A DNA stretch of 64,000 nt from Ulota crispa (lineage: Eukaryota > Streptophyta > Bryopsida > Orthotrichales > Orthotrichaceae). Made by a program: the position numbers and the translations under genes. This document shows, piece by piece, positions 2,836-57,674 of this stretch. How positions within the stretch are numbered: position 1 is the first letter of the stretch; every line of letters begins with the position of its first letter. The stretch is taken from positions 18,686,002 through 18,750,001 of the forward strand of contig OY987242.1 of NCBI GenBank assembly GCA_963920765.1, in the 5' to 3' direction. The notes under the pieces are model-generated. The model was not told the origin of the DNA. It did not search any database and worked only from the letters and a program-made list of their open reading frames with translations.

Positions 2836-3751
2836 CCCCTAAAGGACCAGACCCCCTTTATTAGAAACATAGCAATTTTGGGTAGGTATCTGTGATTGGA
2901 GTTTTTCATATTTTAGGTTGAAAATTTAACAAAATGTGGGGACAAGGTTTATCTTTCATATGCACTAAATTTCATGGCAATTGGAGTTATGAGTAAAAAG
3001 TTATGGCCTAATATCTTGTTTTTTACATTCGGCAGGCAACCTAGGCAGATTTTTAATAATCACGTTTTTCAAAAACAAAGTTTTTAAATGGGTTTAGGAG
3101 ATTTATGTGAATGTAGGAAGCTTTGAACCATTTTGTTTGGATCAACAAGATGAAAGTTATGAGGATTTTTTGTTTGCAGGCAATTATGGTTTCTCTACTC
3201 TAAAATAAACTTTGAAGTCCTTTATTTTACTCAATTTTCAATATTTTGGAAAAAAGAACAAAACCAAAGGATGAATATTGTTTATGACAACATTATGACC
3301 ATTGGGATTGGCATTTTTCATTTCCATAATTAAATTCTTAACAATTTAGTGTTTTGAATCATTCTCTACTCCTTTTTACTTACTAATTTTTTTTCATGTG
3401 TTATACAACTCCAAATGATTTGAAACTTTTTTAACATGTACTTTACTTAGGTGGAGTAAGGAATTTAGAGAAGCACCACCCACATGGCCTTTTTTCCTTA
3501 GGAATTTCACCTTTTGAAGGGTAGCTGCCCGGTTTTTTCACAAGACGTTTTTGAGTATTCAAACCATTCTAACTTCCAATCCACATCGTGGAAAGCTCTG
3601 AAATTTTTTCCACATCTTCTATAACCATTCTTTTGCAAGATCCTATGGTCGCATATGCATAAAAATGTTTTTGTTTTCAAATTTGGTTGATGCTCTAAAA
3701 ATGGCAATTTTGAAGAGTTTTTGGTGAAAACCTTGCTTGGTCCTTTAGGGG
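2836..3751. mobile_element. TTAA-type element, subfamily B, nested in the foldback MULE
   Basis: The ends are CCCCTAAAGGACC and its inverted copy; the flanks read TAAA on the left and TTAA on the right. It interrupts the right arm of the MULE: the intact left arm shows the pre-insertion sequence, so both boundaries can be read directly. A near-identical copy of similar length lies at 56040-56951. No coding capacity is seen. Confidence 0.75.
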
Positions 3752-3895
3752 TTAATAATCCCTTGCTTGGATGACATTAGCTGAGCCCATGAAGGTGGAC
3801 AATAGTTTCATTTTCAGGTGATTTGAGGCCTAGGCAGGGGCAACCATGAACATTGTTTTTTTAAGGTCTGACAAGGCAGGGCCCAAATCAACGTA

Positions 3896-4206
3896 AGGTA
3901 GGAGCACCCATAAGCATCAATGTCCCCTAACCGTCACTTCTGAAATCTTGAAAAACATGTGGAAGTGAATAAATATAATGACAAGGATGTACAACATGTG
4001 AACATAAAATCTTAAAAATGGTTATGGGTGCAATGGCAATTTGCTCTTTAAAAATTCATAACTTATTTTCAAAATATCCAAATAATACATTTAAAAATAC
4101 AAACTTTTTTTTTCTGTTCTTAATAGGATCTTATAATTTGCTAGCTATTTATTAATAGTCATCATGTTCACAACCCTTGGTTTGACGTTTATGGGTGCTC
4201 CTACCT
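3896..4206. mobile_element. Mariner-like (TA) MITE, AGGTAGGAGCACCC family, copy 1
   Basis: This 311-bp element has terminal inverted repeats AGGTAGGAGCACCCATAA and lies between TA dinucleotides (3894-3895 and 4207-4208). It sits in the right arm of the foldback MULE, and the uninterrupted left arm confirms the insertion boundaries. Related copies lie at 7131-7444 and 55047-55359. A TA duplication points to the Tc1/mariner (Stowaway) type; this is inferred from the boundaries, as no transposase is present. Confidence 0.7.
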
Positions 4207-4485
4207 TATGTGCAGTAAACCGAGCCTTCAGTTTCGCTACTACGCCCTAGGCTCCGGGTTTCGCCCAAACCCGGCGTTTGTTGACTTTCGGCTTCCTAAA
4301 TCCGAACTCTCTAAGTTAGTCTGTACGTCTCCTCGATTGGCTGGTCCCTTTGTCGCATTGTACGCTTTAATGATGTTCCTGTTTTCAATCCAGTCAAAAG
4401 TGTCAACCACTCTCGGTTAACCTCTGCGCGCCCAGGCTATTTTCACCAACTTCAAGATTTTGGGAGACCTACAAGTGCGTTTAAC

Positions 4486-5231
4486 CCCTAAAGGACTGAG
4501 TGTCTGTTCGGGGACAAATGGGATTTTGGGCATGTACATATGTCTAAACTATTTTGTGTGATTTTTTGAAATTTTTATGGAAGATGGGGAATTCAAAGAC
4601 CCGTGTGCACTTTTTTTTTTTCTTTTTTTTTCATTTTGACATTTTTTGAAAAAGTAAAAAATGAATTTCTGATTTTTTTTAGAGATGGGGCAATCCAGGT
4701 AGCCCAAAAAAAATTTTAACATTTACATTTTTTAAAAATAAAAGTCTGATACTGGTTCTTTGAGTTTACATATACATGAGAAGCTTTGAATCACTCATTT
4801 CCAATAAATGAGATGAAAGTTATGAGGACTTTTGGTTAATTGGTAGATATGGAGCCATATCTACCAATTAACCAAAAGTCCTCATAACTTTCATCTCATT
4901 TATTGGAAATGAGTGGTTCAAAGCTTCTCATGTATATGTAAACTCAAAGAACCAATATCAGACTTTTATTTTTTTTAAATGTAAATGTTGAAAAAGTTTT
5001 TGGGCTTCTTGGACTGCCCCATCTCCAAAAAAAATCAGAAATTCATCTTTTACTTTTTCAAAAAATGTCAAAATGAAAAAAAAAAAGAAAAGAAAAAAAA
5101 AGATGTGGTCACGGATCTTCAAATTCCCCATCTTCCATAAAAGTTTCAGAAAATCACACAAAGTAGTTTAGCCATAGGTACATGCCCGAAATCCCATTTG
5201 TCCTCCAAACAGACACTCAGTCCTTTAGGGG
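4486..5231. mobile_element. TTAA-type element, subfamily A, near-perfect palindrome
   Basis: It begins CCCCTAAAGGACTGAG and ends in the inverted copy, flanked by TTAA on the left and TTTA on the right. The two halves, about 370 bp each, mirror each other and meet near 4858. Relatives with the same internal sequence lie at 28869-29588 and 54119-54834, with part-matching copies at 32831-33769 and 49525-50601. Confidence 0.75.
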
Positions 5232-6437: not shown

Positions 6438-6729
6438 GCATCCTAACCACCCATGCCTTTCCTTCATCAAGTAATATTGTACTACTTTTTCCCAAAATCT
6501 CAAATTCAAAGCCCTTCAACATATATTATGTAAGAAAAGTGCACAATTTCAAAACATGATCCAACAGCAATTAAATGGGTACATCGCTTATCATGCAATA
6601 TTAGGTGAATGGTTTGGCCATAGGGAACAAGGAGTAGGGGCTGCAACAACATTGGAACAAGGAATAAATTTCACATTGTAGAGTAAGCAACCAAGCAAAT
6701 GTTCACAAAAAAGGTTGAGCACACAGAAC

Positions 6730-6987: not shown

Positions 6988-7542
6988 CCCTTAAGCTCCC
7001 AAGGGGCCAGAATATGGCCTCTCGGTTTTGAAAAATTTCAAGGTTTGACCATTATAATCTTTCAATGGTACCGTGTAAGAACATGTCCCTTTCCGTGGAG
7101 CTCCAAGCATATGTTCCCTACCAATCAATAAAGTAGGAGCACCCATAAGCGTTAGTTTAAGGGTTTTGATCATGATGAGTATTAATAAATAGCTAGCAAA
7201 TTATAGGATCCTATTAGGAATAGAAAAATATTGATTTTGCACTTTTGAATGTATTATTTGGATACTATGAGAATAAGTTGTGAATTTTTAAAGAGCAAAC
7301 TACCATTGCACCCATAACCAACACTAAGATTTCATTTTCACATGTTGTACATCCTTGTAATTACATCTATTCATATTCATAAATTTTTCAAGATTTTAGA
7401 GGTGACGGTTATGAGGACACTAACGCTTATGGATGTTCCTACCTTATAGTTAATTTATGTAAATCTCTTTTAGGTGAAAATTTGATTAGAATGAATTCCA
7501 AAGGGTTTGGGTTTGAACAAACTTATGCTGGGCACTCAGGGG
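6988..7542. mobile_element. TTAA-type element carrying a nested TA MITE
   Basis: TTAA flanks both ends (6984-6987 and 7543-7546). The ends CCCTTAAGCTCCCA and the inverse of CCCCTGAGTGCCCA are imperfect inverted repeats. A 314-bp TA MITE (7131-7444) is inserted inside it, so the remaining element is only about 240 bp. Confidence 0.55.
7131..7444. mobile_element. Mariner-like (TA) MITE, AGGTAGGAGCACCC family, copy 2
   Basis: This 314-bp copy matches the elements at 3896-4206 and 55047-55359 along its length and is flanked by TA (7129-7130 and 7445-7446). It is inserted within the TTAA-type element 6988-7542. Confidence 0.65.
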
Positions 7543-7546
7543 TTAA

Positions 7547-9749: not shown

Positions 9750-10695
9750 CATTTGTCGTTGCAAATAAGTTGCTATTGTGAATACATTGCATGCATTAAA
9801 AAGCTTGCAAAGATAGTTTATTAAATGCAGTGCTTTTGTAAGTTTTATGAATTTATTTTTAGAAAGGGGTTTGTGATTTGCAATACTCTTGTTTTTTTAC
9901 CTCTAAATGTCCAAGGTACCAAATTTTGATGTTTACAAAACCTCTAAACCTTCCTAAATGCAAAGATGTGGATGTTTAGTTTTTTTTTGTGAAGACGCTC
10001 TAGTTTGAAGTTAGCTTCAATTTTCAATTTGATTGTCCTTCATCTACATTCTAGTTATTTTTGGTGGAAGTTGAATTGCAAGCATGTTTGTTACACATTA
10101 TAAAGTGTGCTAAAAAGTGTCAATGAAGAGCCTATTACAAGTTGCCGCTTTGGAAAAATGGATAGCAGGTTGAAAATAAAATCAAGATCTCCCCCTAAGC
10201 AACAAGGGGCCTTATATAAAAAACTCATTATCTAAAAATATCCAAATGTGTTTTATTGCTAATTTTAATTGGAATATTTTGGTTATACAAGTTTGAATTC
10301 ATCTAAATTTGAATTTTTTTGTTAATAATGATTTTTTGGTCAATAATTGGAGATAAAGTTTCCCTTTGTCTTAGGTGGTAGCTCTTTGATTATTGCATTG
10401 CAAGCTCATTTGCAAAATTGTTGTCATGGATTTGGAAGAGGTCATTAGTTTTTAAATAACAATAATAAATTTTAAATCATCATAAGTGGTAGTTTTCCAA
10501 TTTTGTACTCAAAAGTTACCATTTTGGCATAACATGTTTTGGACAAATGCAAGAAAAAACACTAAATTCCATACTCATCCACATTTAGTTACAAATATCT
10601 TGACATCCACGTGGCTTTTGTGGAATTTATTTGGTAGCACCCATCTAGAAGCCTCAAAGTTCCAGATCTTACAATTACAATTTTCTTTCAATGAA

Positions 10696-12039
10696 CCTTC
10701 AAACGCCGGGCTGGTCACCATGACTAGCCTTGCTATAGTAGTCTAAAAGGCTCTACAATATTTTGGCAAGTGCTTAGTAGTTATACTATTATTTTCTAAA
10801 ATTGTAGAAGTCAAAAATGTATGGTGCCCTCATGAAAATTACAAGAAGGGCAGTTTGGAACCTAACACCGTGTCTCTATATCTTCTCACAATATTTGGGT
10901 TACCCAAAAATACAAGTGCATCTAATGAGGTAATTATTTGCTTTTCATGATGAACCATGTGTTTACAATCACTTTTGAAAAAAATCAAATGAAAATGGAT
11001 TTTTAACCCCTAAAGGACCAAGTGGTTGTTCAACAACCACTTGAGAACTCGGGTAGGGTCATATGGAGTTAATTTTTATTGAATGTTCTCAAAATTGTTA
11101 CACAAGGTGCAAATATGTATCTTCCAAGTGGAAATCTAATTTTTCCCCAATCGAATGCTTGGTTCAGAAGTTATGTTGCCCAAAAGAAATTGGGCAGTTT
11201 GGGCAATTTGAGCATCTTTGGAGAATCTTATGCTAAAACTCTCATCAACTTTTGGAATTTGGCAAGTATGTAACTAAAAAAACATGGTGTACAATTGTCA
11301 AAAAAATAAACAAATTGAGGACTCACATCACATTCTAAAGGGAGCCAAACTTTGTTAACTATGATTGGGAAGCTTCAAGAAAAAAAAAAATCCTCTAACT
11401 TCAAACCCTATTATCTTTCAATCTATAAATCCAAAGCTCTTGAAACTTTTTTCACATATTCCAAATGTTTGTCTCCAACTTTTCACCTTTCAAATTTCAA
11501 ATAAAAGACTTCCTCATTGCACAAGAAATCATGAAAGAATGACTAATGTATTGCCAATTCACTAAACCTCCTTGCATTGGAGGGTGATTTAGAATAAGCT
11601 AGACTCTATATTTGCATCTGAAAAATTTCATGAGTGAACCTAACATCATATACTTGTGAATGGTCAAAAAGCTCAAATTTGTGTAGAGCAAAAATTTTAC
11701 TCTAGGAAGGGTCAAGTCTGCTGACCTTGTTTTGCAAGAATGAAAAAAAGCTATTTTTCTCACTTCAAATGTTATAATCTTACAATCCGCATGGTTAAAT
11801 GGGCTGAAATTCTTTGCACACATTAACTTATCTATTTGACAGACTTTTGTACGGTTGGAATTGAGAGAAAAAGTTTTTATTTTAAATTTTGGGCAATGCA
11901 CTAAAAGTTGACAGTTTCTGATCTTTTTTCTCAAAAAACACCCCTGGTCCTTTAGGAGTTAATTTTGTCATACATGATGTTTTTTTTTGTAGCTGGAGGA
12001 CAAAAAACGTCCTTCTCGGCGTTGAGGGGTTAACAATGA
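10696..12039. mobile_element. TTAA-type element inserted in subfamily H, itself interrupted
   Basis: The left end CCTTCAAACGCCGGG (after TGAA, 10692-10695) pairs with the right end CCTTCTCGGCGTTGAGGGG, followed by TTAA at 12040-12043. Most of its span is the inserted 11007-11958 element; about 390 bp belong to this element itself. Confidence 0.45.
11007..11958. mobile_element. TTAA-type element, innermost of a triple nest
   Basis: TTAA flanks both ends (11003-11006 and 11959-11962). The ends are CCCCTAAAGGACCA and the inverted copy TGGTCCTTTAGGAG. The interior does not match subfamilies A or B closely. No transposase frame is visible. Confidence 0.65.
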
Positions 12040-23547: not shown

Positions 23548-24176
23548 CCCCTAAATGCTTGAGGCACCAAATGTTGGTGTTAAATATACTTTGAAGTTCA
23601 ATAAACCTAACTGAATTACTTTTTTTAGTGGTTTATACTTTTGAGCTATTCTTTTTAAAGTTTAGTTTTAGCATCAAAAATCCAATTTTGAAAATGATTG
23701 ATTTTGATTTTTCTAATCAAGATTTTGTGCAAGGGTCTTGATTTTTGTAATGTTGAGAGCTCTTGGAAATGAACCTTAAATACACTAGATCTTGGAAAAA
23801 ATTACACTATAAATTCATTTTAAAAATTTGTAAAAGAGATTTTGAAAAGTTGTAAATTGATTGGAGTTATGTATGTTATGTTCTTTGACTTTATATTTTT
23901 CTGGTGACCAATATTCTAGATTTAATATGTAAAAAGAGAATTGAAAGACTTTTGGTCATTTTTGCAATTTTAACACCCTCATGATCAAACACTATAATTT
24001 TACAATCCATAAGTGCTATTGTTGTGTTTTCTTTTCCTATGTGATCTCTAACATATCTAGTTTGAATTTTATACTTACAATTTTAATTTTTTTTATAAAT
24101 CTTATTAAAATGTTGGCTTTTTATTCAATTTAGAGCAAATTTGTAGAAGCTCAAAAAAGCCTCACGCATTTAAGGG
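23548..24176. mobile_element. TTAA-type element related to subfamily H
   Basis: TTAA flanks both ends (23544-23547 and 24177-24180). The ends are CCCCTAAATGCTTGAGGC and the inverse of CCCTTAAATGCGTGAGGC. The start reading GGCACCAAAT resembles the subfamily H copy at 46040. Confidence 0.7.
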
Positions 24177-25218: not shown

Positions 25219-25321
25219 CCCCTCAAGGACCACGTGAACAAAAATCATCCCCGCTCCTACACGGCGCCCTTGTATACATGGCGCCCGTGTATACACGGTG
25301 ACCGCCCCCAACGCTTAAGGG
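25219..25321. mobile_element. Very short TTAA-type element
   Basis: TTAA flanks both ends (25215-25218 and 25322-25325) of a 103-bp unit starting CCCCTCAAGGACC and ending CGCTTAAGGG. The interior is GC-rich and contains two repeats of GTATACA(T/C)GG with GGCGCCC, themselves palindromic. Confidence 0.6.
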
Positions 25322-25460
25322 TTAATAAATATTTGTACACTTATAAAAAAAAAGAGAAAAAAACAACGTTTTGGCTAAACCGGCACGCCCTTTCTGGTAC
25401 TTGTAGATGAATCCCAACTTCGCTCTTAGAAAATCAGAAGCATGCAATAAACTTACTTAA

Positions 25461-26227
25461 CCCCTAAGCGTCCTGCTAAGAAATTTCAACATATCTCCAA
25501 CGTGAAACCTTCAACACATTCCCCAAGTTTTTGAAAAGTTGAACAAGTAATCACATAATCCAAACCAGTCATTCTATACCCATCTATAAATCAAACGTTT
25601 TAAACCAATTTGATTTCAAATCCAAGTAAATTTGCAAAATCCCCACCATTGAGAATCTCATGTTCTCCAATTTGGGCAACAGTTCAAAATATGGATTTTG
25701 GACTTTCATGTAATATTTTCTCAAAAAAGAGATTTACCTAGTGGTTGATCCCATGAGATTGTGTCTTGCTATACTTGATGGAAAAAAGAAACTCCACAAA
25801 TGGATAAAAACTCCAAAAGATATGGTCACTCAAAGTAGCTAGATTCCACTAACTCCTTACTTTAGAGCTATAAAAACCTTGCCCAAATCAAGAAAAAAAA
25901 AAGCAACATATCACCAAACTTCTCCCTTGTACAATACAAGACATGAGAGCACCCATCCCATTTGCTCTCTAAGCCGCTCCTTTTGTTTGCCCAAAGGCAT
26001 TCTTCTCCTAATTGTTGAAAAAATAAAACATTTTCCATATTCTATGTAGAATTTAGAGCAAAGGAGGCACTTCTAGGAACAAGCTGATCAAAAAAATTTC
26101 TTGAACTAGCAAATCCATTTGGACTTGAATGGCAGACCAAAATTAGAACTAACAATACCTCTTTTTTATACTTTCACACCTCCAAGCACCCCCTTTGGCC
26201 ATAATGGGCTCTTTGGTGCTATAGGGG
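25461..26227. mobile_element. TTAA-type element
   Basis: TTAA flanks both ends (25457-25460 and 26228-26231). The left end CCCCTAAGCGTCC and the right end GGTGCTATAGGGG are diverged inverses. The interior has no match that I see elsewhere in the window. Confidence 0.55.
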
Positions 26228-26983: not shown

Positions 26984-29900
26984 CTAATAATAAGGTCTGT
27001 AGCGCATTGGCCTCCTAAACCTAGGTACTTTCCTGCACAATACAGCACCTCCAATGCGTTAGGAGCAAACAAGGCAAGTCAGGTCAAACCACATGAGACT
27101 AGGCTTCCTTATTGACAGTCACCCTAACAACTGCAAAACCATATACTGCTGCATGAACTAACGCTTCACATATGCATGACACTCAAATGGCATACAATTA
27201 CAAGTATTAACCAGCATTTTACTAGCAGGATGCGAACTTCCAAGTCAACAATGCAGGAAACAAGCAAACTTTGAACTCAATATGAAATATGCACACCACA
27301 ATTCAGAATGGAATCCGCTAAGGATACCCACCCAAAACCATAGGGAGCATACCCATAGGGAGCTGAAAAAGGCCTCCGCGAGCGGTACCCATAAAACGGG
27401 GCGTATGGTCGACCCCGAAAGCCCTTCATTCCTGGAACATTTGTCCTCTTCGCTGTAACCTGCCAAAATTCCAATAACTCCACTTCAGATGTATACATGG
27501 AAGTCAATCAAGAGATAACCATTACAGGAAAATGAAGCGGTTCACTTCTGTGATCGAACCTTTTAAAAATCATGAAGTACTTAAGCAGGACATTTCAAAT
27601 ACATAATTGACAGCGATGAACATGTTTATAAACAACATCCTCCACACGAGTGTAGGATAACAACCTTGAGTGGGCGATTATGCAGCTCGGACTCACTTAA
27701 GAGAATGGCATTTTGAACTGCTTCGACCTCCAAAAACTCCACATATGCATACCTGGTCACAAAAGAAGCAGGACGTCAAGATAAGCTACAACTAGCGACT
27801 GGGAATTAGTAAAAAAATAGATGAGGCAAGCACTAAGCAGCTCCTTACGCAAGGCCAGTTGCTGCAACATCAAGACATCTCCATTCAACTGCGGCGTTCC
27901 AAATCCGCTGTCTACAATCTCAGTACCAGTCATCCCTCTTAAAATCCCTGAAACAAAAACTTCGTGTCATCGTTGCACGCAATTCAATAAATGTAATAGT
28001 GGAAAAAAGGTATTACCCCTTGGGCTGTCCAAACTTGTCCGTCAAAATCGTAACACGATTCACTGTGCCACATGACTGAAAGTGCTGTTGTACTTCTTCC
28101 GGAGTGCAGGAATAATCGACCTATAATAAACAAAAATCAATTTAAAAACTCACTCAAGCGTTGACCTCAGCTATGATTCTGCTCACAAGACATGAAGAAG
28201 CTATCGAAACGGTCACTCTGCCAGGTGGTACATCAATTGGGAGCAAAAACACAACCGAACTTACTACACAAACATACATCTAAAAGAATTCTCACAAAAC
28301 CAAACCGTACAAAAGCAAATATTCATAAGTCAACAGAAAAGGAAGGAGTGTTTACATTGCCAACAAAAACTGAACGAGCGTCTGCTTCCACTTTGTTTGC
28401 CTGGGCTCCATTTGCAAGACCTGAGTCTGAAAAAAAGAAATTACGATCAAACTACTAACTATTAAACTAAGCTGTAGCATTGTAGGTGAAAAGTGAATAG
28501 CTTCTTTTATACTCCATTTAACCGCTTACATCACTAAACTCCATTTTTCATAAATTCCGACAACATGGCAGACAGTACATGGAAAATGCAACAAAAGTGA
28601 AAGCTCAGAATTTAACCACAACTTCGTAAAAGTCACTTAACAAAAACTGTAACGAGCGAAAGCACTTTGTACTCCCCAAAAAAATCAGGAGGCGAGAAAA
28701 GTCGAACCTTGACTACCACCCATTTCCTTTTCAACCTTCGCTTGCATGTCACGTAACGCAGCAGCCTCTTCTTCCATCTCCTTCAGTCGTTTTTTCATGT
28801 CCTCAAGCTCCTACGGAGCGCAGAAAAAAATTTAGCTTGTGATCATTCTCCAATTTCAGATTGACTAACCCCTAAAGGACCATTGTCCCTTCGGGGGACA
28901 AATGGGATTTTGGGCATGTACCTATGGTTAAACTACTTTGCGTGATTTTCTGAAACTTTTATTGAAGGTGAGGAATTCAAAGATCTACGTGGGAATGTAA
29001 TTTGTTCTTCATTCTGACATTTATTGAAGAAGCTAAAAATGAATTTATGGAAAACAGGGGACTCTGGGCAGCCCAAAAATTTCTTTTAAAAATTGCTTTT
29101 TTTTCAAATAAAAATGTGAAATAGGTTCTTTAGACTTATATAGACGTGGGGAGCTTTGAGTCATTCAATTTTGATAGATGAGATGAAAGTTATGAGAAGT
29201 TTTAGTTTGCAAGTAGGTGTGGTTTCTCTCAAAATCACACCTACCCACGAACTAAAACTTCTCATAACTTTCATCTCACCTATCAAAATTGAATGATTCG
29301 AAGCTCCCCACATCTATATAAATCTAAAGAACCTATTTCAGATTTTTATTTGAAAAAAAAGCAATTCTTAAAAGAAGTTTTTGGGCTGCCCGGAGTCCCC
29401 TGTTTTCCATAAATTCATTTTTAGCTTCTTCAATAAATGTCAGAATGAAAAACAAATTACATTCCCACGTAGATCTTTGAATTCCTCACCTTCAATAAAA
29501 GCTTCAGAAAGTCACGAAAGTAGTTTAGCCATAGGTACATGCCCGAAATCCCATTTGTCCCCCAAAAGGGCCCTTGGTCCTTTAGGGGCTAACAAATTTC
29601 CAATGGCCATGGAAAATTTACGAATATCTCACCTAACCAAAGACTTTTGATAGCGCTCTCTTAAAATCCGTAAATAAGCTCAATATATCAGGATTCCAAC
29701 TAAGAAGCCTGGACACCAAGAATTCCAGGCTAACCCTATTGAGCAGAGCTTCATAACAATCACGACAAGGGAGGTACACCGTACTCACATGCCATGAAAA
29801 CAGACTAAAATTTCGCATTAAGCTCTAACCATATTGAAAAAACTAGACTGCCACAAGCGCGACTTGTAGCTTGACCTAATAATTAGGGATAGAGAGCTGC

Positions 29901-32830: not shown

Positions 32831-33769
32831 CCCCTAAAGGACCAACTGTCCCCTAATGGATTTCAGGCATGTACCTATAGTTAATTTATTTTTTGTGACT
32901 TTTTGAAACTTTTATTGAAGGTGGGGAATTTGAAAATCTATGTGGGCATCTAACTTTTTCTTCATTTCAACATTTATGAAGAAGTTATGCATGAATTTCT
33001 GAAAAAGGGAGAGGGAGGGCAGCCCAAAAAAAAAACAAAAGTGCAATTTTTGAAAATAAAAATCTGAAAATGGTACTTTAGATTTATACAAATGTGGGAA
33101 TCTTTAAATCATTCAGTTTTGATTGATGAGATGAAAGATATGAGAAGTTTTAGTTTGCTAGTAGGTATGGGACTCCCAAACCTCCATTCTTTTTGCCTCT
33201 TGTAAAATTTGTTGTTTTTGTTTTTTGAGCTCTTTGTGTATTTTTTTTTTACTTGCTTTTTTTGAAGTTGTTATAAACTAAGACTCCTTGGCTTTCACCA
33301 TTTGGATCAAAGTAATTCAGATTTTTGAATTTTACATAAATTCTCCAATTTTGCCTAGTGTATATACAAATTTCATGGCCTTACGGCATTGCAAGATTTT
33401 ACAAAGTATGATCCACATTTCCAACTCATTTGAAAATTCTCCCACATTTTCCTAATTTGGTCTTCTTCATGCCAAAAATAAACCTCAACCTTTGCGTAGA
33501 GAATTTTTTTTGATATAGGAGCTGTCAAAGGCTTTTGAAATTTTTGGGCACTAGGGAAAAAAACTTTTTTTTCACTTCAAATGTCAATATCTCACTCCTC
33601 TACTTCTAGAATGAGCTGAATTTTTTTCCACAAGTACCTCCCATAGTCTAGGGCAAGATCTTATGGTTGAATTTCCAAAAAAAAAAATTTCCTACCTTTC
33701 TACTCATTCCCCCAAAAATGACAGTTTTCAATGATTTTCAAAGAAAAAAAAGACTCGGTCCTTTAGGGG
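32831..33769. mobile_element. TTAA-type element, subfamily A variant with unique right half
   Basis: TTAA flanks both ends (32827-32830 and 33770-33773). The left 340 bp match the palindromic subfamily A arms, but the right half is different sequence. It is shared, in inverse orientation, with 49525-50601 (for example the segment around CCAAATGGTGAAA and the AGGGCAAGATCTTATGG region). Confidence 0.7.
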
Positions 33770-36213: not shown

Positions 36214-36440
36214 CCCCTAAACGTCTGAGCGTGCCGCTCTGAATAGTACAACATAGGATATTTTTCTTATATTTGGAATGGATCCACACCTCTATTACAT
36301 CTGAGACTAACAAAGAAGTTGGAGAATAGATCAATGCGATTCTAGCAAGCTACTTGAGATCCCAAATTAAAATTTCTTATTGGTAGCAAATGACAATTAT
36401 ATGTCAGCGTATATACTATGCCCTATTGGACGTTTAAGGG
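36214..36440. mobile_element. TTAA-type MITE, short subfamily C, copy 1
   Basis: TTAA flanks both ends (36210-36213 and 36441-36444) of 227 bp starting CCCCTAAACGTCTGAGCG. The interior (GGCATAGTATATA-type segment near the right end, AGCTACTTGAGATCCCAAAT in the middle) matches 42022-42257, 48660-48886 and 57449-57674. Confidence 0.75.
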
Positions 36441-40400: not shown

Positions 40401-43400
40401 CATCTATTTTGAAGAGGGTGATCACCTGATTTTGCTCAAAGTAGTTGGGAACTACTCGAAATTCTCCAAGAGCTATTACACCGGAAGTTGGCCTTTGTGT
40501 CCCCATCAACATCCGTAGCAGTGTACTCTTGCCACACCCATTTGGACCAATAACTGCTAACTTCTCCCCTCGCTCCACTAGCAACTGTGCATTCTCGAAC
40601 AAAACCTGTCAAAAAAACAAAACTAAATCATATCAAAAAAATTGCCATCTTCAAATATTGCACCAAAATGAAAGATTTGACATCTAGTTTTGAACACAGA
40701 TGACCTCCCGAGTCCCAACTCCAAGGAAGAACGATAAAATTTCCTCCTACAATGAATACCTTGTCATCATAACGACAACCCAGTTTCTTAATCTGAACAA
40801 CCGTCCTTCCACTCCTCTCCAGCTCCGGGAATCGAAACTTCAGAAGCTTCCGTTCAAACGGCTTCTCCACAACATTTCCTTCGTCTTGCATCTTCTCCAG
40901 TTGCTGCAATCCGTGACAATCAATCTCATTAGCACAACAATAAAAAAGAGATTCCATAGTTCATAAAAACTCCCATGAATCTCCATTCTATATATTCATT
41001 ACTGCAAACGCCTTAGAAATAAAATCGTTTTTATTGTTTGACGGCACAGGCGTTGAATGAAATAAAAAAAAAAAAAGCTCTTGCTAGCTGGCACACGCTC
41101 CAACTCTAGATAACTGTACGCAGTATTTACATATAGGTGTTCATACTCAGAGACTAAACCTACTTAGTACTGTTCTTCTGGAAATTATCCAGAACCGCAA
41201 TTCTCAGTTCCTTCAATCTACACAGAGGGATGATTTCAAGTACTGTCTAATTGCACTGCCGTGGGGAAGAATGGGATTCTGTCTGCACCCCGGTCTGCAC
41301 TGACTCTCACATCCGTGTCATTATAACTTGACAGAATCAGAATGGTCATGGTCCTGAACACGATGTAATTTAACGGCTAAAAAGCGTAGCATTGAAATAC
41401 ACAGACCCCTTGATATCAAGACTTGTGAAGACCTGAGCTTCTACAGGAGTAGCAAAAGAAGGTGCCAAAGCTTAGAAACTTTGCTACTTCAACAAATGTA
41501 AAGATGCAAGGATACTCACTGAATGGGCATGTACAGGGTGTGTCATTAAAGAGGGTGGAACAGAGGAGATGGAGTAGCATGCACCTTGGCAGCAGACGTG
41601 GCACGGCCAGAATTAGCGCCACTGCTGAGGCGCTGAATCATGTCCTCGGCGCGAGCAATCTCCTTCTGCTGCTTCTCCCAGGCCATGCGTTGCGCCTCCA
41701 CCCAGGCAGCCTTGGCCAGCACATACTCACTGTAATTCCCCGGAAATGTCTGAGCCACCCCCATGTCCGTCTCCACGATCTTGGTGCACAATTGGTCCAG
41801 GAAGGCACGGTCGTGGGACACGATCACCATGGGCACCTCTTGCTCCTTCAAGTACCGTTCCAGCCATTCTATGCTGTTCAAGTCCAGATGATTCGTCGGC
41901 TCATCCAGCAACAGTAAATCCGGTTTCTGATACATCGCAAGATACGCTCCCCATCGGTAAATTTATACAATCTAAAGCGCCAAAAGAGAAGCAAGCCTTC
42001 GTGTGTCCAAAAGCTCTCTAACCTAAACGTCTGAGCGTGCCCCTGTGACCAGTACAATACGAGGTGGTTTCTTTTGTATTTGGAATACATTCACATCTTT
42101 ACTACATTTGAGATCAACAAAAAAGTTGAAGAACAGATCATAGCGGTTCTATAGCAGTTCTAGTGAGTTACTTGAGATCCCAAATGAAAATTTCTTATTG
42201 ATAGCTAATGCCAATTATACGGCAGCATATATACCGTGCCCTATGGGCATTTAAGGGCTAACCTAAGAATGGAAGAGATCTGAGGTGACTCTGAAAAAGT
42301 GCAAAATTCTCGAAGTTTTGCCGTTGTTACGAACACGAAGATACAGTGAGTACAAGCTTTGATTTCCAAGGAATCAAAAGCAGAAACTAAGAGAAAAAAA
42401 GGAGGTGAGTTCCAAGCCAAACCTGAAGTAAGATCTTGCCCAGCGCTATACGCATTTGCCAGCCTCCACTAAAGGAAGCCACCAATCGGTCCCCATCATC
42501 AGCGGTGAAACCTAATTCGGGCATCATCTTGTTGATGCTTACGTCCACACTGTAGAGATCGGATGCGTCCGCCTTATGTTGCAAAGTGTCCAATTCGTCC
42601 AGCAACTTCGCCATCAGATCCATGTCATCCGTTGCATTCTCAAGGGCCACCTGTGGACACAATCAATCCCGGACGTCGTTATTTCCCAACACCTGGAAAA
42701 GCCTTCACCACATATGATACTGAACCAAGTACTACTGCAGGCAAAGCCCGCTGCCATTCTGAAGATAGTGGGTTCTCCATAATATTAGATCGAGTCAAAA
42801 ACTTTTAATCACAAATTTGAAGAAATTTTCCCACAATTCATGCTGAAGTTTGCCGACATTTACAGGGACCCATATGGTGGCACTGATCCCACAACTTCGC
42901 CGCAAGATTTTCTTAATAATGATGCTTTGTTGAAGATGCTTAAAACGATCTAATTTGGCTGCTGGAAACCCTATTCTACTTGTTGATATCAAATTCAATG
43001 TCAGGGACACACAAGCCATTCGAGATGGATTATATGAAGTGAAGTCGGTCGGAAAGTACAGTCACTGAGAAAAATCGACAAACCTGCGCTTTTTCAATCC
43101 TTGCAGCGATGTCCATCTCGCTAGCAAAAGTGCTCATAAATTCCTCTCGAAGTGTGCGAGATCCAACAACTTCAAACTCCTGGCTCAAGAATGCAATCTT
43201 CATGTTCTCCCGAGCTTTCACCACATTTCCAGAATCGGGCTCTTCCTTGCCGGCAATGATATTCAGCTGAGTGGTCTTCCCGGCGCCATTGATCCCCACC
43301 AGCCCCACTCGCTCGCCCCGCTTCACCTCCCACGACACGCCCTTCAGCACAGACGCATCTTTGTACGTCTTGCTGACATTCTCCAGCTTCACCCCCGACA

Positions 43401-46039: not shown

Positions 46040-46917
46040 TCCCTAAATGCCCAAGGCACCAAATTTGGGTGTTCAATAAACTTTGAGACCTTGAAGGAAG
46101 AGATATGATTGTTTTAATATTTGATTTTTTTTTTAAGAAGTTGCAATCTGAAGTTAGCTTCAATGCTCAATTTTATTGCCTTCCACACTATATTCCAATT
46201 GTTTTTGACGGAATTGTAAGCATGTCCTTTGCATGCCAAAAGGTGTGATGAATAGTGTCACTAAAGAGCCTAGGACAATTGTTACATTGGAAAAACAAGT
46301 TGCAAGTTGAGGATAAAGTGAAGATATTGTTTGGCACTTTTCCTTGGGCAGAGAGGGCCTTTCCATTGAAAACTCATCATCTAATGACATCCATATTTAT
46401 GCTTTTGGGATAGGTTTACTTGGAATGTCTTTGTTATACAGGTTAGAGTTCAATTACCATTGAGTTCTCTTTCAATCATAATGAATTCTTATCAAGGATT
46501 GGAGGTAAAAACTTTCTTTGTCTTAGGTGGTAACTTTTTGACAATTGTATTTTAGGCTCATTTGTGAAGTTAAGTTTAGGAATTTGAAAGGGGGTTGTCA
46601 GTTTTGAAGTAACAACAATAAACCCTAAATCATCATAAGTGTTGTTTCCCATTTTTGCACACAAAATTTATCATTTTTGTATTAAAAGTTTTAAACGGTT
46701 CCAAAAAAACCAAAAAAATCCATGCTCAACCATATTCAATCACAAGTATCTTGAGATTTGCGTGATTATTTTGGATTTTTTTTGGCAACACCATCTAGAA
46801 GCCTTGAAGGTCACAATTTTGTTTAAATGTTTAGTAACGGTCTTACGACAACAGTTCAAAAACTTCAAAATTGCATACAAATATAAGAAAAACGTAACAC
46901 CCTTGAACATTTAGGGG
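46040..46917. mobile_element. TTAA/CTAA-type element, subfamily H, uninterrupted copy
   Basis: It starts TCCCTAAATGCCCAAGGC after CTAA (46036-46039) and ends TTGAACATTTAGGGG. At 878 bp it is the reference length for the interrupted copies at 9900-12101 and 48891-50850. The base after its right end does not restore CTAA, so that side has diverged. Confidence 0.6.
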
Positions 46918-47249
46918 AAAGTGTAGCAAGTTGAGATTCTATCCAAACTAAATGTATAATAAAGTATTCAAAAACTTTCGACAATACAAGTCCAATGCTG
47001 TATTATACGTCCCAAATCCCAAGTGGAACTAAAAAAGCCATTTCGAATGTTAGCTGTAGCCCACCCCACAACCCTAAATATTGCTTCCCTAAAAAAAGGA
47101 CTTTCTATTGCATGTGAACTTCTGTTACCAAGTTGTACCAAGTTCTTAGCAAGCTCAGCTCAACTCTTTAGAGCATAAGTTTGTATTTTACCTCCATACA
47201 TATTAGGTGGTCAGATTTTGATCAATTAATGAATCTAAACAAGTCCCAT

Positions 47250-48642
47250 ACGTACAGTACACGGACAAATATTTTTGTCGACCCCCTTTCACCACTTCTG
47301 TTATTAACGGAAATTAGCATATTAGAAAATATAAACGGTATTTTTTTAATTTGCATTATTGATATTTGATTGTTGCTAGCAATCCCAATCAAGCATACCA
47401 ATCAAGCATACCAAAAGTCAACTTTTAAAAAAACCAAAACTCAATTTTTGGTAAATTGTTTTGTATAATATTCATGGTTAAGAAAATTGATTGACAAAAT
47501 GGGTGATGAATTTTTGAGATTTGATTGCATGGGTATGTAGAAAACACCCATACACACACTTTTCATACTAAAATAGAACCCCTTAAGCAACAAAATTTTG
47601 ATCTACAAAAGATTCAATGCCACCTTTTATATGCCCAAATTTTGTTAAATTTATATTTTTATATTTTAACTAGCTTTTCACTAAGTAAAAATAACATCAT
47701 GTTGGAAAGTACAAACTTATTCACAACTGGTATAAAAACACACTTTGCGTGAGTAGGACATGTATGACTAATGCAACATTCAACTTCAAAAAAAACTAGT
47801 GTCTCATAAATCAATTGGTCTAAAATCTACTCTTGATGTACTATACAAAAAATCAATATCTCACTACTAGTCTAGAATCTAATCCATATGACCATCATTT
47901 TGGTCCTTTTTTGAGACCAATAATACCAATTGCTTTCATCACAATACTACTCATTTATATTTGCTAGGAGGCACTGGGCATTTTATTAATTTCTAGCACA
48001 TGGTTGGAGGGCATTTGGTGTTCTATATTTGGGGCATCCTTTACTATTTCAACTTCCACCAAAAAGTTCTACAAAATTTTGAACATGAACATGGTTACAA
48101 GGGGCACTTGGTGTTCTATATATAAGGCGTCCTTTGTTGCTTCAACTTATACCAAAAGTTCTGGAAAATGGCGCACTTAGGGTAATCCTCCCTCTTAGTA
48201 GTATAGATGTATGAGTCAAATATAAAAATTTGATTATTATAAAACAATGTCTAGTTTACAAAAGTTGGGCATATCAAAGGTTGCATTGAATCTTTTGTAG
48301 ATCAGATTTTGTTACTTAAGGAGTTCTTTTTTAGTATGGAAAGTGTGTGTATGGGTGTTTTCTACATACCCATGCAATCAAATCTCAAAAATTCATCACC
48401 CATTTTTTTCAATCAATTTTCTTCTAAAACCATGGTTATTATACAAAACAATTCACCAAAATTTGAGTTTTGATTTTTTGAAGTTGATTTTTGGTATGCT
48501 TGATTGGGATTGCTAGTAACAATCAAATATCAATAATGCAAAGTAAAAAAGTACCATATATATTTTCTAATATGCTAATCTCTGTCAATGACGGAAGTGA
48601 TGAAAGGGGGCTGGCAAAAATATTTGTCCAGGTATTGTACAT
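47250..48642. mobile_element. Large foldback element of about 1.4 kb
   Basis: Arms of about 380 bp (47250-47640 and 48268-48642) are inverses of each other, including GGACAAATATTTTTG near the ends and ATGGGTATGTAGAAAACACCC inside. The centre (47650-48265) contains a direct tandem duplication of about 105 bp that starts near 48008 (motif CATTTGGTGTTCTATAT). The edges are imperfect, so I could not define a target duplication or a superfamily. Confidence 0.6.
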
Positions 48643-48659
48643 ACAAGAAGTGATTCTAA

Positions 48660-48886
48660 CCCTTTAAAGGACCATAGGGCATAGTATATATGCTGCCATA
48701 TAATTGGCATTTGCTACCAAAAAGAAGTTTTAATTTGGGATGTCTAGTAGCTCACTAGAATGGCTTTGATCTATTTTCCAACTTCTTTGTTGATCTCAAA
48801 TGTAGTAAAGGTATGAATCTAGTTCAAATACAAGAAAAACACCTTGTATTCTACTCGTCGCAGCGGCACGCTGTGTCCTTTAGGGG
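48660..48886. mobile_element. TTAA-type MITE, short subfamily C, copy 3
   Basis: It starts CCCTTTAAAGGACCATAGGG after CTAA (48656-48659) and ends CTTTAGGGG before TTAA (48887-48890). The interior matches the other subfamily C copies in inverse orientation. The same TTAA is also the left flank of the next element. Confidence 0.7.
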
Positions 48887-48890: not shown

Positions 48891-50850
48891 CCCCAAAATG
48901 CCCAAGGGTGTTTTCTCATTTTTGGAAGGAAGTTTCAATATTTTTGAATTGTTCTTGCAAGACCATTATCAAACATCAAAACAAAAACAAAATTGTAACT
49001 ATAGGATCTTGAACTTCGAGGCTTCTCTTTGGTGTTGCCAAAAAATGCTCCAAAAAGGCCATGTAGATTTTAAGATATTTGTGATTGAATGTGGATGAGT
49101 ATGGAATTTTTTGGTTTTTTTTAACTGTCCAAAATTTCTAATGCAAAAATGGCAGATTTTGTGTACAAAAATGGGAAACAACATTATGATGATTTAGTGT
49201 TTATTGTTGTTACTCCAAAACTGACAACCCCTCTTTCACATCCATGGCCTTAATTTCACAAATGAGTCTGCAATGCAATTGTCAAAGAGCTACCACCTAA
49301 TACAAAGAATTTTTAAATCCAATTGTTGAACAAATATCATTATGAATGAAGGAGAACCAATGGTGAATGAATTTTTATTTGTATCACATAAACACTCCAA
49401 TTGAAATTAGCACAAAAACACATTTAAATTTTGTTAGATGACAATATTTCAATAAAAGGGCCCTCATTATCCAAGGGAGTGCCCATGGGAATTTTCACTT
49501 TATTCTCAACTTGATGCCCATTAACCCCTAATAGATCGCGGCCTTTTTTCTGTGAATTTCAGTGAAAACTGCCACTTTTGGGGGAGCAAGTAGAATAGAA
49601 AAAAAAAAAAAAAAAGAAGGAAAATCCAACCATAGGATCTTGGCCTAGATTATGGGAGGTACTTCTTGGGAAAAAATTAGCTCAATGTAAATGTTGAGGA
49701 GTGAGATATTTACATCCAAAAAGTAGAAAAAAGTTTTTTTTTCACTGCCCAAAATTTTCATAAGCCTTTGACCATTGATATGTCAAAAAAATTACTCTAT
49801 GCAAAGTTGCGGATCTTTTTTTTCATGTCTGAAACCAAGTTAGGTATGAGTGGGAGAATTTTCAAATGAATTGGACATGTGGATCCGTAAAATTCTACAA
49901 TGCCGGAAAGTCTAGAATTTTACAAATACACTAGGCAAAATTGGAGGATTTATGTAAAGTTTAGAGATCTGAATTACTTTGATCCAAATGGTGAAAACCA
50001 AGGAATCTTAGTCTACTGCAACTTGGAAAAATAAAAAGTAAAAAAACAAATACATAAAGATCTCAAAAAAGTAAAGCAACAAGTTCTACAAGGGGGAAAA
50101 GGAATGGAGGTTTGGGAGTCCCATACCAATGTTTTTTTTTGGGCCTCATAAGGCCACCCTGTCAAAAATTAGACCAATGCTCCTCTCTCCCTCTTGAAAT
50201 TCTCCATTCCTAGGAGGACATGTGGCGTCTGGTAGATGAAAAAAAAAACACTGCCTTATACCTACCCAAAAACTAAACATTTCATAACTTTCATCTCAAC
50301 TATCAAAATTGAATGATTCAAAGCTTCACACATATACACAAATCTAAAGAACTAGTTTCAAATTTTTGTTCTAAAAAAACGCAGGTTTTTTTTTTGGCTG
50401 CCCAATTCTCCCCTATTTTTCAATTATTCATGCATAACTTCTTCAATAAATGTCAAAATGAAGAAAAAAATAGATGTTCACATAGATCTTTGAATTCCCC
50501 ATCTTCCATAAAAGTTTCAAAAAATCACAAAAAGTAGTTTAACTAGAGGTACATGCCCAAAATCCCATTTGTCTCCCAAAGGGACAATGATCCTTTAGGG
50601 ATTAATTTATCATAGGCTTTTTAATGACACTATTCATCACACTTTTTGGTGTGCAAGAGATATGCTTGCAGTTTTGCTTTCACCAAAAACTATTGAAATA
50701 AGGTATGGAGAACATTAAAATCAAATGTTGAAGCTAACTTCAACTGACAACTTCTCCAAAAAAAAACCTTAAAATAATCAAATCTTTCCTTCAACTAGGT
50801 TTCAAAGTTTCCCAAACACCTAACTATTGGGTGCCTTGGGCATGAAGAGG
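48891..50850. mobile_element. TTAA-type element, subfamily H, interrupted by a subfamily A element
   Basis: It begins CCCCAAAATGCCCAAGGG directly after the TTAA shared with the previous MITE. It resembles the 46040-46917 copy in inverse orientation. It is interrupted by 49525-50601 and resumes at 50606 with AGGCTTTTTAATGACACTAT. Its right end near 50850 (GGTGCCTTGGGCAT) has lost the terminal bases, so that coordinate is approximate. Without the insert it is about 880 bp. Confidence 0.6.
49525..50601. mobile_element. TTAA-type element, subfamily A variant, nested in subfamily H
   Basis: TTAA flanks both ends (49521-49524 and 50602-50605). It starts CCCCTAATAGATCGCGGCC and ends ATGATCCTTTAGGGA. 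It is the inverse-orientation relative of 32831-33769: the right 330 bp are the subfamily A arm and the rest is the variant half. Confidence 0.7.
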
Positions 50851-53426: not shown

Positions 53427-53468
53427 TATGTATTGTTGTGTTATTGTGAAAACTGAATAGTGAATAGT

Positions 53469-54118: not shown

Positions 54119-54834
54119 CCCCTAAAGGACCAAGCCCCCATTTTGGGGACAAATGAGATTTCGGGCATGTACCTATGGCTAAACTACTTTGCGTGATTTT
54201 TTGAAATTTTTATGGAAGATGGGGAACTCAAAGATTTATGTGGGCATTTAAGTTTTTTTTCATTTTGACATTTATTGAAGAAGTTAAAAATGAATTTTTG
54301 GGAAAAGGTCTAGATCGGGTAGTCCAAAAATTTCTTAAAAATAGCATTAAAAATGAATAAAAATATGAAATAGGTTCTTTAGACTTATATATAGATGGGG
54401 AGTTTTAAATTAGTTAATTTTCATTAATAAGAAGAAAGTTATGAGAAGTTTTTGTTTGCGAGTAGGTGTGATTTTGAGAGAAACCATACCTACATATGAA
54501 CAAAAACTTCTCATAACTTTCATCTCATCAATGAAAATTGAATGATTCAAAACTCCCCACCTATAAATAAGTCTCAAGAATCTATTTCATATGTTTATTT
54601 ATTTTGATGCCATTTATAAGAATTTTTTGGGCTGTCTGATCTAGATCCTTTCCCAAAAATTCATTTTTAACTTCTTCAATAAATGTCAAAATGAAGAAAA
54701 AATTAGATGGCCACGTAGATCTTTGAATTCCCCATCTTCCATAAAAATTTCAAAAAATCACACAAAGTAGTTTAGCCATAGGTACATGCCCGAAATTTTA
54801 TTTGTCCCACGAAGGACAGTTGGTCCATTAGGAG
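54119..54834. mobile_element. TTAA-type element, subfamily A, palindrome
   Basis: TTAA flanks both ends (54115-54118 and 54835-54838). It starts CCCCTAAAGGACCAAG and ends TTGGTCCATTAGGAG. Both halves mirror each other around 54470-54490. It is closest to the copy in PABN intron 1 (28869-29588). Confidence 0.75.
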
Positions 54835-55046
54835 TTAATATTAAAATAGCTGGCCTCGAAGAAAGTTTGACAACGTCAATAAATATTTCGTGAAACCCAT
54901 TTCTGACATTGAGACTGTGTCAAATGCCGTCTTTTAGCATAGATTTTGGGACTCTTCTAAAATATGAAAACCTTGGAGTTGATTCCAGAAATCAAATCAA
55001 TGAAATCCATAAGAACCAGGATTATGACTTGCTGGACAGTATTGTA

Positions 55047-55359
55047 AGGTAGGAGCACCCATAAACGTCAAATTAAGGGTTTTGGACATGATGACTATTA
55101 ATAAACAACTAGTAAATTATAGGATTCTATTAGGAACAGAAAAAAATGAGTTTGCACTTTTAAATGTATTATTTGGATATTGTGAGAATAAATTATGAAT
55201 TTTTAAAGAGCAAACTGTCATTGCACCCATAACCATTTTTAAGAATTCATGTCCACATATTGTACATTCTTGTCATTACATCTATTTATTTCCACAGATT
55301 TTTCAAGATTTCAAAGGTGACGGTTATGGAGACACTGACGTTTATGGATGCTCCTATCT
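55047..55359. mobile_element. Mariner-like (TA) MITE, AGGTAGGAGCACCC family, copy 3
   Basis: TA flanks both ends (55045-55046 and 55360-55361) of a 313-bp unit starting AGGTAGGAGCACCCATAAAC. It matches 3896-4206 and 7131-7444 throughout. A more diverged relative may lie at 57017-57444, starting AGATAGTAGCACCTATAAAC. Confidence 0.7.
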
Positions 55360-55361
55360 TA

Positions 55362-56035
55362 CTTCTCGAAGCGTTGTTGTGATGTAAATCACAGCATATG
55401 GTAAAAATAAATAAAACTATTAGTTTATAGTATGTGTGAGGTATTGTACTCTTTTTCCTTCATCCGCAGTTTTATCCTTGATTAATAAGGTTTTCCCGGA
55501 TAAAATTTTGATGAGGCAACAACCTTTTAGAAGTGTTAGTTACTTGGAGTTCCTTACAGTATATTCTAAAAGGGATTTGTAAACCAATAGTCTAGAAGGA
55601 CTTTTACTTTGGAGTTCTTTTTTGGTAAAGTATTTTGAAGACCAATGGTAGAAGATGACCTTTTATTTTTATATCCTTTCTCTATAGTATATAGATGAAA
55701 TCCTACTTGGGAGAGGTAATTCCTTGAAACCAAATTTTATTTTCTATACCTTGAAATATAGTTCATTTGTTTTGTTCTCTTATGTTTTGATCATTTTGGA
55801 GTGTTATTTTGAGAGGGATTGTATGCATACTATCTTTCATTTGATTCTTTGAGATAGTCGCAGCCAGACACCCTACGTGTTCTCAAAGCACGCTCCTCTC
55901 TACCCGACAGCGTTTACTTAGCTGCCCGCGTTATTGTTGTTTCTTTCATAAGAACTTCTCCACTGCACCATGGAAACAGCTGCACAATACCAAGTTCAAT
56001 TTATTAAGAGCCGTCAAATCATGATCAGATGGCCC
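55362..56035. other. AT-rich intergenic sequence, nothing recognised
   Basis: No gene or clear repeat. A slightly GC-richer patch at 55855-55930 has no recognisable content. Confidence 0.35.
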
Positions 56036-56039
56036 TTAA

Positions 56040-56951
56040 TCCCTAAAGGACCAAACTTTTCTTTTTAGAAACATAGCGATTTTGGGCAGGTACATGTGAT
56101 TGGAGTTTTTCATATTTTAGATTGAAATTTTAACAGAATGTGGAGACGAGGTTTATCTTTCATATGCACTAAATTTTATGACATTTGGAATTATGAGTAA
56201 AATGTTATGGCCTAATATGTTGTTTTTTACATTCGTCAGGCAGCTTGGGCAGATTTTTAATAATCAAAATTTTCAAAAACAAAATTTTTAAATGGGTTTA
56301 GGAGATTTATGTAAATGTAGAAAGCTTCAAATTATTTTGTCTGGATTAGCAAGATGAAAGTTATGAGGATTTTTAGTTTGTAGGCAATTATGGATTCTCT
56401 ACTCTAAAATAAACTTTGAAGTCCTTTATTTTACTTGATTTTCAATATTTTGGAAAAAAGAACAAAACCAAAGGATGAATATTGTTTATGACAACATTAT
56501 GACCATTGGATTGGCATTTTCCATTTCCATAATTAAATTCTAAACAATTTAGTGTTTTGAATCATTCTCTACCTCTTCTTACTTACTAATTTTTTTCTTA
56601 TGTTATACAACTCCAAATGGTTTGAAACTTTTTTGACATGTACTTTACTTAGGTGGAGTAAGGAATTTAGAGAAGCACCACCCACATGGCCAGTTTTCCT
56701 TAGGAATTTCACCTTCTAAAGGGTAGCTGCCCAATTTTTCACAAGATGTTTTTAATAATTAAAACATTCTAACTTCCAATCCACGTGGTGGAATACTCTA
56801 AAAATTTTCCCACATCTTCTAAAACCATATTTCTACAAGACCCTACGGTTAAATATGCATAAAATTGTTTTTGTTTTCAAATTTGGTTGATGCTCTAAAA
56901 ATGGCAGCTTTGAAGAGTTTTTGGTGAAAACTTTGCTTGGTCCTTTAGGGG
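56040..56951. mobile_element. TTAA-type element, subfamily B, copy 2
   Basis: It starts TCCCTAAAGGACCAAACTTT after TTAA (56036-56039) and ends TGGTCCTTTAGGGG, followed by ATAA. It aligns end to end with 2836-3751, including the segment reading CACCACCCACATGGCC. Confidence 0.7.
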
Positions 56952-57448
56952 ATAATAAATCAAGCTTGGTATTGGTATTGTAAGTCTGTTTCAGTGCTAT
57001 AGTGGAGAAGCTCTTAAGATAGTAGCACCTATAAACGTGAGGTCTCCATGGGCGGGACCTACATTTGCACCCATATATGTGTTTTTTGGTCTCATGACTA
57101 ATGAGTATAAAATAAATTGGTTATGGGTGACACGATAATGGTTTTTGGTGACAAGTTCATTCCATTTGAGTGCAAATGTGTTTGAAAATAGGTTAGTGGA
57201 TAACGTTAAATGGTTTTGCAATACCATGAGTAAGAGTCGTTCTTAGCATCTCCTACACACAATTATATATTTTTTGTGATTTTGGACTTTGAAAAATCTT
57301 TGTGAACAAATGCTTGCAATTGAGACTTTTAAATTGATGTTAATATTTTTGGTTTCTTCTTGCTTACTTAAAAATATTTTTTTTAAAGATCATGAATTCA
57401 TTCTCCTACTCCAAAGTCCTAGGTTTCACGCTCATGGGTGTTGCTTAA

Positions 57449-57674
57449 CCCTTAAACATCTATAGGGCATAGTATATATGTGGATGTATAATTGTCATTT
57501 GCTATGAATAAGAAATTTAAATTTGGGATCTCAAGTAGCTCACTAGAACCGCATTGGTCTATTCTCCAACTTCTTTGTTGGTCTCAAATGTAGTAGAGGT
57601 GTGGATCCATTCCAATTACAAGAAAAATACCCCATATTGTATTTGTCGGAGTAGCATGCTCAGACGTTTAAGGA
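57449..57674. mobile_element. TTAA-type MITE, short subfamily C, copy 4
   Basis: TTAA flanks both ends (57445-57448 and 57675-57678) of 226 bp starting CCCTTAAACATCTATAGGGC and ending GCTCAGACGTTTAAGGA. It matches the other subfamily C copies. Confidence 0.75.

Follow-up and report, generated by a model that had tools for sequence, protein, structure and literature searches.

The piggyBac superfamily shares with IS1380 a 4-bp target-site duplication (TSD) and 5'-CC..GG-3' termini (PMC10045372). In the small animal genomes covered by PMC10813416, CCCTT is given as the most conserved piggyBac start, alongside CACTA, CCCTC and CCCAT, and rare TSDs that include CTAA, TTAG, TAAA and others are recorded; the superfamily member TFP3 is described with both TTAA and ATAA TSDs (PMC8634313), and in human HEK 293 cells piggyBac is reported to target exclusively TTAA (PMC3078864). 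Here we describe a population of repeats in a 64,000-base stretch of the Ulota crispa genome (Bryopsida; assembly GCA_963920765.1, contig OY987242.1, positions 18,686,002 to 18,750,001 of the forward strand; G+C 27–46% in 4-kb steps), referred to below as the window. These repeats are quite probably non-autonomous members of the piggyBac superfamily of the miniature inverted-repeat transposable element (MITE) type, mobilised by TTAA cut-and-paste with a transposase supplied in trans. They have in common with non-autonomous piggyBac members a CCC(C/T)T start and gene-less bodies of ~1 kb or less, and with the 831-bp TFP3/tagalong of Trichoplusia ni a TTAA duplication with CTAA/ATAA-type variants and CC..GG termini (PMC10813416, PMC8634313, PMC10045372). 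They differ from the non-autonomous piggyBac members in their plant-like host, in a terminus of their own, CCCCTAAAGGACCAAG, in that no transposase gene was seen in the open reading frames scanned, and in one family, designated A, whose members are long palindromes laid out alike at their two ends.

For land plants, a 2015 survey counts PiggyBac among the superfamilies present in all groups studied, which include land plants (PMC4438587), a table in a 2019 fern paper lists 1,230 PiggyBac annotations totalling 122,417 bp (PMC6890710), and a review includes PiggyBac among plant superfamilies (PMC10794571). A 2025 survey that covers MITEs from 207 plant genomes recognises five superfamilies together with Micron, caps MITE length at 800 bp, and mentions neither piggyBac nor TTAA in its main text (PMC12550479). 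An earlier note on this stretch, which called piggyBac unusual in land plants, was half right, as PMC4438587 and PMC6890710 list PiggyBac while the main text of PMC12550479 does not. Plant reports of piggyBac were few, and no paper on TTAA MITEs in land plants was found among the matches listed from the open-licence literature. The elements described here resemble plant MITEs of the Mutator, hAT, PIF/Harbinger, Tc1/mariner and CACTA superfamilies in being short, bounded by inverted repeats and gene-less, one of them probably lying in an intron, and differ from them in the length and sequence of the duplication. A five-superfamily catalogue capped at 800 bp (PMC12550479) could omit or misassign a TTAA class in which 5 of 13 elements are longer than that, and piggyBac derivatives in plants could be undercounted in such catalogues. 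The families are new, the kind is already known, and the host is somewhat unusual.

The repeats are real and exceed chance expectation. In a scan of the window, CCCCTAAAGGACC had 22 matches at ≤2 mismatches against 0.81 expected, and TTAACCC[CT]TAA was observed 17 times against 0.18 expected. The shorter TTAACCC[CT] occurs at 26 sites; about 5–6 are expected by chance, so some unpaired ends of this form would be chance occurrences. TTAA stands directly before 17 of the 36 CCC[CT]TAA sites, compared with about 1% in shuffles. With up to one mismatch allowed, TTAACCCYTAA marks 37 ends (100 shuffles: mean 4.85, at most 11), and 13 inverted pairs of such ends lie 150–1200 bp apart (100 shuffles: mean 0.08, maximum 1). 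These automatic pairs correspond to 11 accepted elements and two weaker candidates, E1 and Y1; the accepted elements C1 and C3 fall outside them, one end of each having decayed. In a set of 15 elements that takes in Y1 and E1, C occupies positions 1, 2 and 3 in 27, 28 and 29 of the 30 ends, and the 5'-CC..GG-3' termini required by the piggyBac rule are present. The exact 17-base terminus TTAACCCCTAAAGGACC had no matches in viral contigs. The CCCTAAA contained in the terminus is also the repeat unit of plant telomeres. This likeness is probably a coincidence; scans for telomere repeats would pick up elements with CCCTAAA in the terminus.

Thirteen elements with both ends were accepted, spanning 8,524 bp or 13% of the window (about 17% when the H family is added). 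The palindromic elements are A1 (4485..5231, 747 bp, flanked by TTAA and TTTA), A2 (28869..29588, 720 bp, with CTAA on either side as a direct duplication) and A3 (54119..54834, 716 bp, TTAA on either side); their asymmetric relatives AB1 (plus strand, 32831..33769, 939 bp) and AB2 (minus strand, 49525..50601, 1077 bp, nested in an H copy) both lie between TTAA copies. B1 (2836..3751, 916 bp, non-autonomous) has TAAA on its left, where it adjoins a palindrome at 1645–2830, and TTAA on its right, and B2 (56040..56951, 912 bp) is flanked by TTAA and ATAA. Among the short C elements, C2 (plus strand, 36214..36440, 227 bp) and C4 (minus strand, 57449..57674, 226 bp) are bounded by TTAA on both sides; C3 (plus strand, 42022..42257, 236 bp), whose left terminus has CC only, is bounded by CTAA; and C1 (minus strand, 48660..48886, 227 bp) is bounded by CTAA and by a TTAA common to it and the edge of an H copy, H3. 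X1 (11007..11958, 952 bp) and D1 (23548..24176, 629 bp) complete the set, each between TTAA copies. Five of the 13 exceed 800 bp, the usual upper limit for MITEs, and the term is therefore used loosely for them.

Besides these, the H family comprises three decayed copies: H1 (plus strand, 46040..46917, 878 bp), with both ends present, CTAA on the left and a decayed right flank; H2 (plus strand, 9900..10700), whose left end stands beside TTTA and whose right end is lost; and H3 (minus strand, 48891..50850), which is split by AB2 and has TTAA at one edge, the other being decayed. The two weaker candidates, both between TTAA copies, are E1 (6988..7542, 555 bp) and Y1 (25219..26227, 1009 bp); the pairing of Y1 is doubtful, and it was rejected as a firm element because it contains two outward-facing ends. 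The repeats of the earlier note are thus borne out, and its count of at least 17 copies with both ends was slightly high. It placed the outer limits at 2836 and 57674, which are indeed the start of B1 and the end of C4, and its sizes for B (about 915 bp), C (about 230 bp) and H (about 880 bp) agree with the measured 912–916, 226–236 and 878 bp (H1). Its description of A as palindromic and about 720–1080 bp long holds for A1–A3 (716–747 bp) and fails for the 939- and 1077-bp members AB1 and AB2, which are not palindromes.

An exact 4-bp direct duplication was found in 10 of 14 listed elements (the 13 accepted plus the doubtful Y1), eight of them TTAA, Y1 included, and two CTAA; without Y1 the count is 9 of 13. 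At 1 bp an exact match was seen in 1 of 14, and at 2, 3 and 5–12 bp in none. To control for picking by TTAA, only the A, AB, B and C families, which were recovered by similarity and not by TTAA, were counted separately. Their 11 elements have 22 flanks, of which 14 are TTAA, five CTAA and three another single substitution, and seven of the 11 have an exact duplication. Of 28 ends whose flanks were read outwards, 25 have T at position −4 and 25 have A at position −1. That TTAA is simply part of the inverted repeat was rejected, as A2 and C3 have CTAA on either side in direct orientation.

Comparisons between copies (one B pair, six C pairs and ten A/AB pairs) place the boundary at the same point. 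Identity rises from 0.23–0.40 in the 20 bases beyond the TSD to 0.75–0.90 within it, and is 0.51–1.00 across the 15 bases with which the element starts, so that similarity is lost right outside TTAA. Direct identity outside TTAA over 1–10 bases is 0.21–0.36, against 0.24–0.35 between the flanks of different elements, as computed with the start of C3 one base off; the largest excess, at 4 bases (0.357 vs 0.262), contains no exact match, and hence no second duplication shows. Membership in hAT or Mutator, with their 8–11 bp duplications, was rejected on the same figures (0/14 at 5–12 bp, and no clear excess identity over the 10 bases outside TTAA).

AB2 interrupts H3, and the paralogues H1 and H2 are without it, which supports the insertion of AB2 as a unit. 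Read inwards, the right flank of B1 is GGGATTATTAA; its counterpart in the left arm has GGGATTAT and then diverges. This arrangement suggests that an older inverted repeat had a TTAA at its centre into which B1 inserted, and that the adjoining palindrome later disturbed the left side of B1. That palindrome (1645–2830) is 1186 bp long, and its arms are complementary at 98% along 553 bases; it is the longest near-perfect inverted repeat among those listed for the window and has no clear target duplication of its own.

Within families, B1 and B2 are 90% identical, and identity is 77–86% for C, 71–82% for A and 69–75% for H. A core of about 110–145 bases is common to A, AB and B at 68–73%, and X1 weakly resembles B1 (65%) and AB1 (69%) in its interior; A, AB and B therefore look like a single lineage, to which X1 may be weakly attached. 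The first 46 bp of D1 are 85% identical to H1. In each of A1–A3, the initial ~340 bases of the AB type make up a palindrome, with arms of ~350 bp that are 84–93% alike. Over the outermost 22 bases, the two ends of A1, A2 and A3 match at 22, 19 and 15 places, the value for A3 being no higher than that of the asymmetric B1 or AB1 (16). Folded with DNA parameters, A2 forms one hairpin of −360 kcal/mol, compared with a mean of −71 for 20 shuffles.

That the symmetric A elements have arms most alike within the same element is a real puzzle. In a tree of 10 arms, both arms of A1, A2 and A3 pair within their own element (supports 100/100, 100/98 and 96/99). Arm identity within A1, A2 and A3 is 91.6, 93.2 and 84.3%, against 72.8–81.5% between A elements, a contrast that is marked in A1 and A2 but slight in A3. 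The view that A1–A3 are simple copies of one palindrome was rejected on this ground, since plain copying predicts arms no more alike inside an element than across elements. Since each arm is closest to the other arm of its own element, the pattern points to arms that were homogenised or to a palindrome that formed more than once. In the arm tree, the branch points that would unite A1–A3 to the exclusion of AB1 and AB2 are open; AB2 is 81–83% identical to A2, and A3 to A2 79–82%. A 14-base central spacer is identical in A2 and A3, in opposite orientation, and favours one founder plus homogenisation; it is no proof of a single founder, as B1 continues with a similar stretch at that place. The symmetric forms bear 4-bp duplications like the other elements. 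As the duplications of A2 (CTAA/CTAA) and A3 (TTAA/TTAA) are clean, whatever moved the A elements would have tolerated symmetric ends, unless the symmetry arose after insertion.

The transposase of autonomous piggyBac elements is of the DDD type (Pfam DDE_Tnp_1_7), and its excision is precise and leaves no footprint. The earlier note reported no transposase in the window, and the searches agree. None was found among the 150 longest of the 252 window open reading frames (ORFs) of at least 58 aa (judged from the best 25 of 31 matching families, the rest having E-values of 0.028 or weaker), nor in the 83 ORFs of at least 40 aa from 12 of 19 element segments, and Pfam searches with eight single ORFs gave no match above the cut-off.

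The 4-bp TTAA/CTAA duplication, the CC..GG termini and the loss of similarity outside TTAA together fit the piggyBac-like assignment, and to that extent the reading in the earlier note is sustained. Several observations weigh against it. Neither a transposase nor a recognisable fragment of one was seen in the scanned window and element ORFs, so far as these reach, and membership in piggyBac is drawn from the ends and the target alone. Four of the 14 listed elements are without an exact duplication (B1, TAAA/TTAA; A1, TTAA/TTTA; C1, CTAA/TTAA; B2, TTAA/ATAA). CTAA stands at 5 of the 22 ends of the similarity-defined families, against the exclusive use of TTAA reported in HEK 293 cells (PMC3078864). 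The sole nested-insertion comparison fits TTAA and is no proof of it: H3 without AB2 and one TTAA reads ATTAATGG, where H1 has GTTACATTGG, with ~12 bases missing around the site and the paralogues only 70–75% alike. The symmetric A layout also conflicts with what is described for T. ni piggyBac, in which the native enzyme achieves both excision and integration with no pair but the unequal LE35/RE63, has no activity on LE35/LE35, and excises RE63/RE63 without integrating it, although a hyperactive enzyme integrates symmetric RE63/RE63 as well (PMC7351741). The unequal ends of that one studied element, which are no rule of the superfamily, are not seen in A1–A3. PiggyBat is reportedly restricted by its own ends, and end requirements would thus differ within the superfamily.

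TTAA is, moreover, common to other superfamilies. Sola3 also duplicates TTAA, and the repeats might belong to it, or to another or undescribed superfamily whose transposase is unnamed in plants and whose ends happen to resemble those of piggyBac. This we consider unlikely: it would accommodate the lack of a transposase in the scanned ORFs and the use of symmetric ends, unlike native T. ni piggyBac (PMC7351741), while in the CC..GG rule and in their CTAA and ATAA variants the repeats agree with piggyBac. Kolobok is like the present elements in its TTAA-specific 4-bp duplication, and was rejected because its 5'-RR..YY-3' purine termini are opposite to the 5'-CC..GG-3' termini found here (PMC9587614). 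MITEs of the PIF/Harbinger (Tourist) type, duplicating 3 bp (TTA or TAA) beside one further conserved base, would leave similar flanks, since a one-base shift of the edge turns any 4-bp TTAA duplication into a 3-bp one and the flanks alone are ambiguous. With symmetric edges, however, a 3-bp duplication is seen in 0 of 14 elements against 10 of 14 for 4 bp, and the palindromic A elements offer no reason for an extra base on one side, which makes this explanation very improbable. The case for Tc1/mariner (Stowaway-type) MITEs, which would duplicate TA and have a terminus starting A-CCCC, is slighter still. TA does lie within TTAA, and another repeat in the same window, K, resembles a TA-duplicating MITE; yet no 2-bp duplication occurs with symmetric edges (0/14), the outer bases are themselves conserved (−4 T and −1 A, each in 25/28 ends), and under a TA model the CTAA on either side of A2 and C3 would make the two ends of each element differ. 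Chance occurrence of the motifs, or degenerate sequence of low complexity, could supply the 5–6 or so expected TTAACCC[CT] sites but hardly the 26 observed, the 13 inverted pairs where no shuffle gave more than 1, or the hundreds of bases common within families, and we give this account practically no weight.

Under the favoured piggyBac assignment, the gene for the transposase would lie elsewhere in the genome, and the enzyme would recognise the 13–16 bp terminus CCCCTAAAGGACCAAG, excise the element beside TTAA and reinsert it at another TTAA, sometimes at CTAA. The A type may have arisen when the first ~340 bp of an AB-like element were duplicated in inverted orientation, which would place the same layout at both ends, and its arms would have been homogenised afterwards or the palindrome would have arisen more than once. 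A broader proposal is put forward only tentatively and is, on balance, doubtful: that the window records a large, long-lived radiation of piggyBac MITEs in a plant (about 13–17% of its length), that the transposase accepts fully symmetric ends, and that the arms are kept alike by conversion or the palindromes form repeatedly. If so, such conversion or repeated formation would make the palindromic members standing sources of hairpins (small RNA). An autonomous partner, if one exists, would be a native plant piggyBac informative about when the superfamily entered plants or was kept in them, and would allow one to ask whether symmetric ends suffice for it, unlike for the native T. ni enzyme.

The surroundings of the elements include pieces of genes that mark the DNA as plant-like, and probably as that of a land plant. 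Pfam searches of the window ORFs identified PALP and ABC transporter pieces; tRNA and Rfam scans of the window gave nothing. A cysteine synthase gene of plant type is represented by pieces at 14586–17644 (minus strand), where the minus-strand ORF 15305–15835 matches cysteine synthases of solved structure (best 4aec, 1.9e-46, among 60 of 105 matches listed), 4aec being presumably an Arabidopsis structure. An ABC-F-type gene in exon-like pieces spans 37402–43851 (minus strand), with an ABC-F ORF at 41549–41962; C3 lies between this ORF and another exon-like ORF of the gene (42390–42662) and is thus probably in an intron. The minus-strand ORF 29904–30341, which had no Pfam match, we take to resemble plant nuclear poly(A)-binding proteins. 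A cluster of short, diverged tandem-like repeats follows at 30912–31803, one strand of which gives proline/tyrosine-rich (APYPYAPYP-like) ORFs.

Other repeats are also present. The K family of MITEs, with terminus AGGTAGGAGCACCCATAA, occurs at 3885–4209, 7129–7456 and 55045–55362, with flanks that fit a TA duplication. The copy at 3885–4209 lies in one inverted-repeat arm, the other arm of which (about 1441–1502) shows the site without K; the flanks ACG-TA-AGGTAGG and CTACCT-TA-TGTGCAG, set beside ACG-TT-TGTGCAG at the site without K, fit a TA duplication plus one later change. Close to C1, a 1395-bp element at 47249–48643 has inverted arms of about 400 bp (85%). Self-comparison identified three two-copy repeat families (37864–38433/44684–45251, 20859–21160/45723–46012 and 8208–8452/9490–9746), whose match edges carry no TTAACCC ends.

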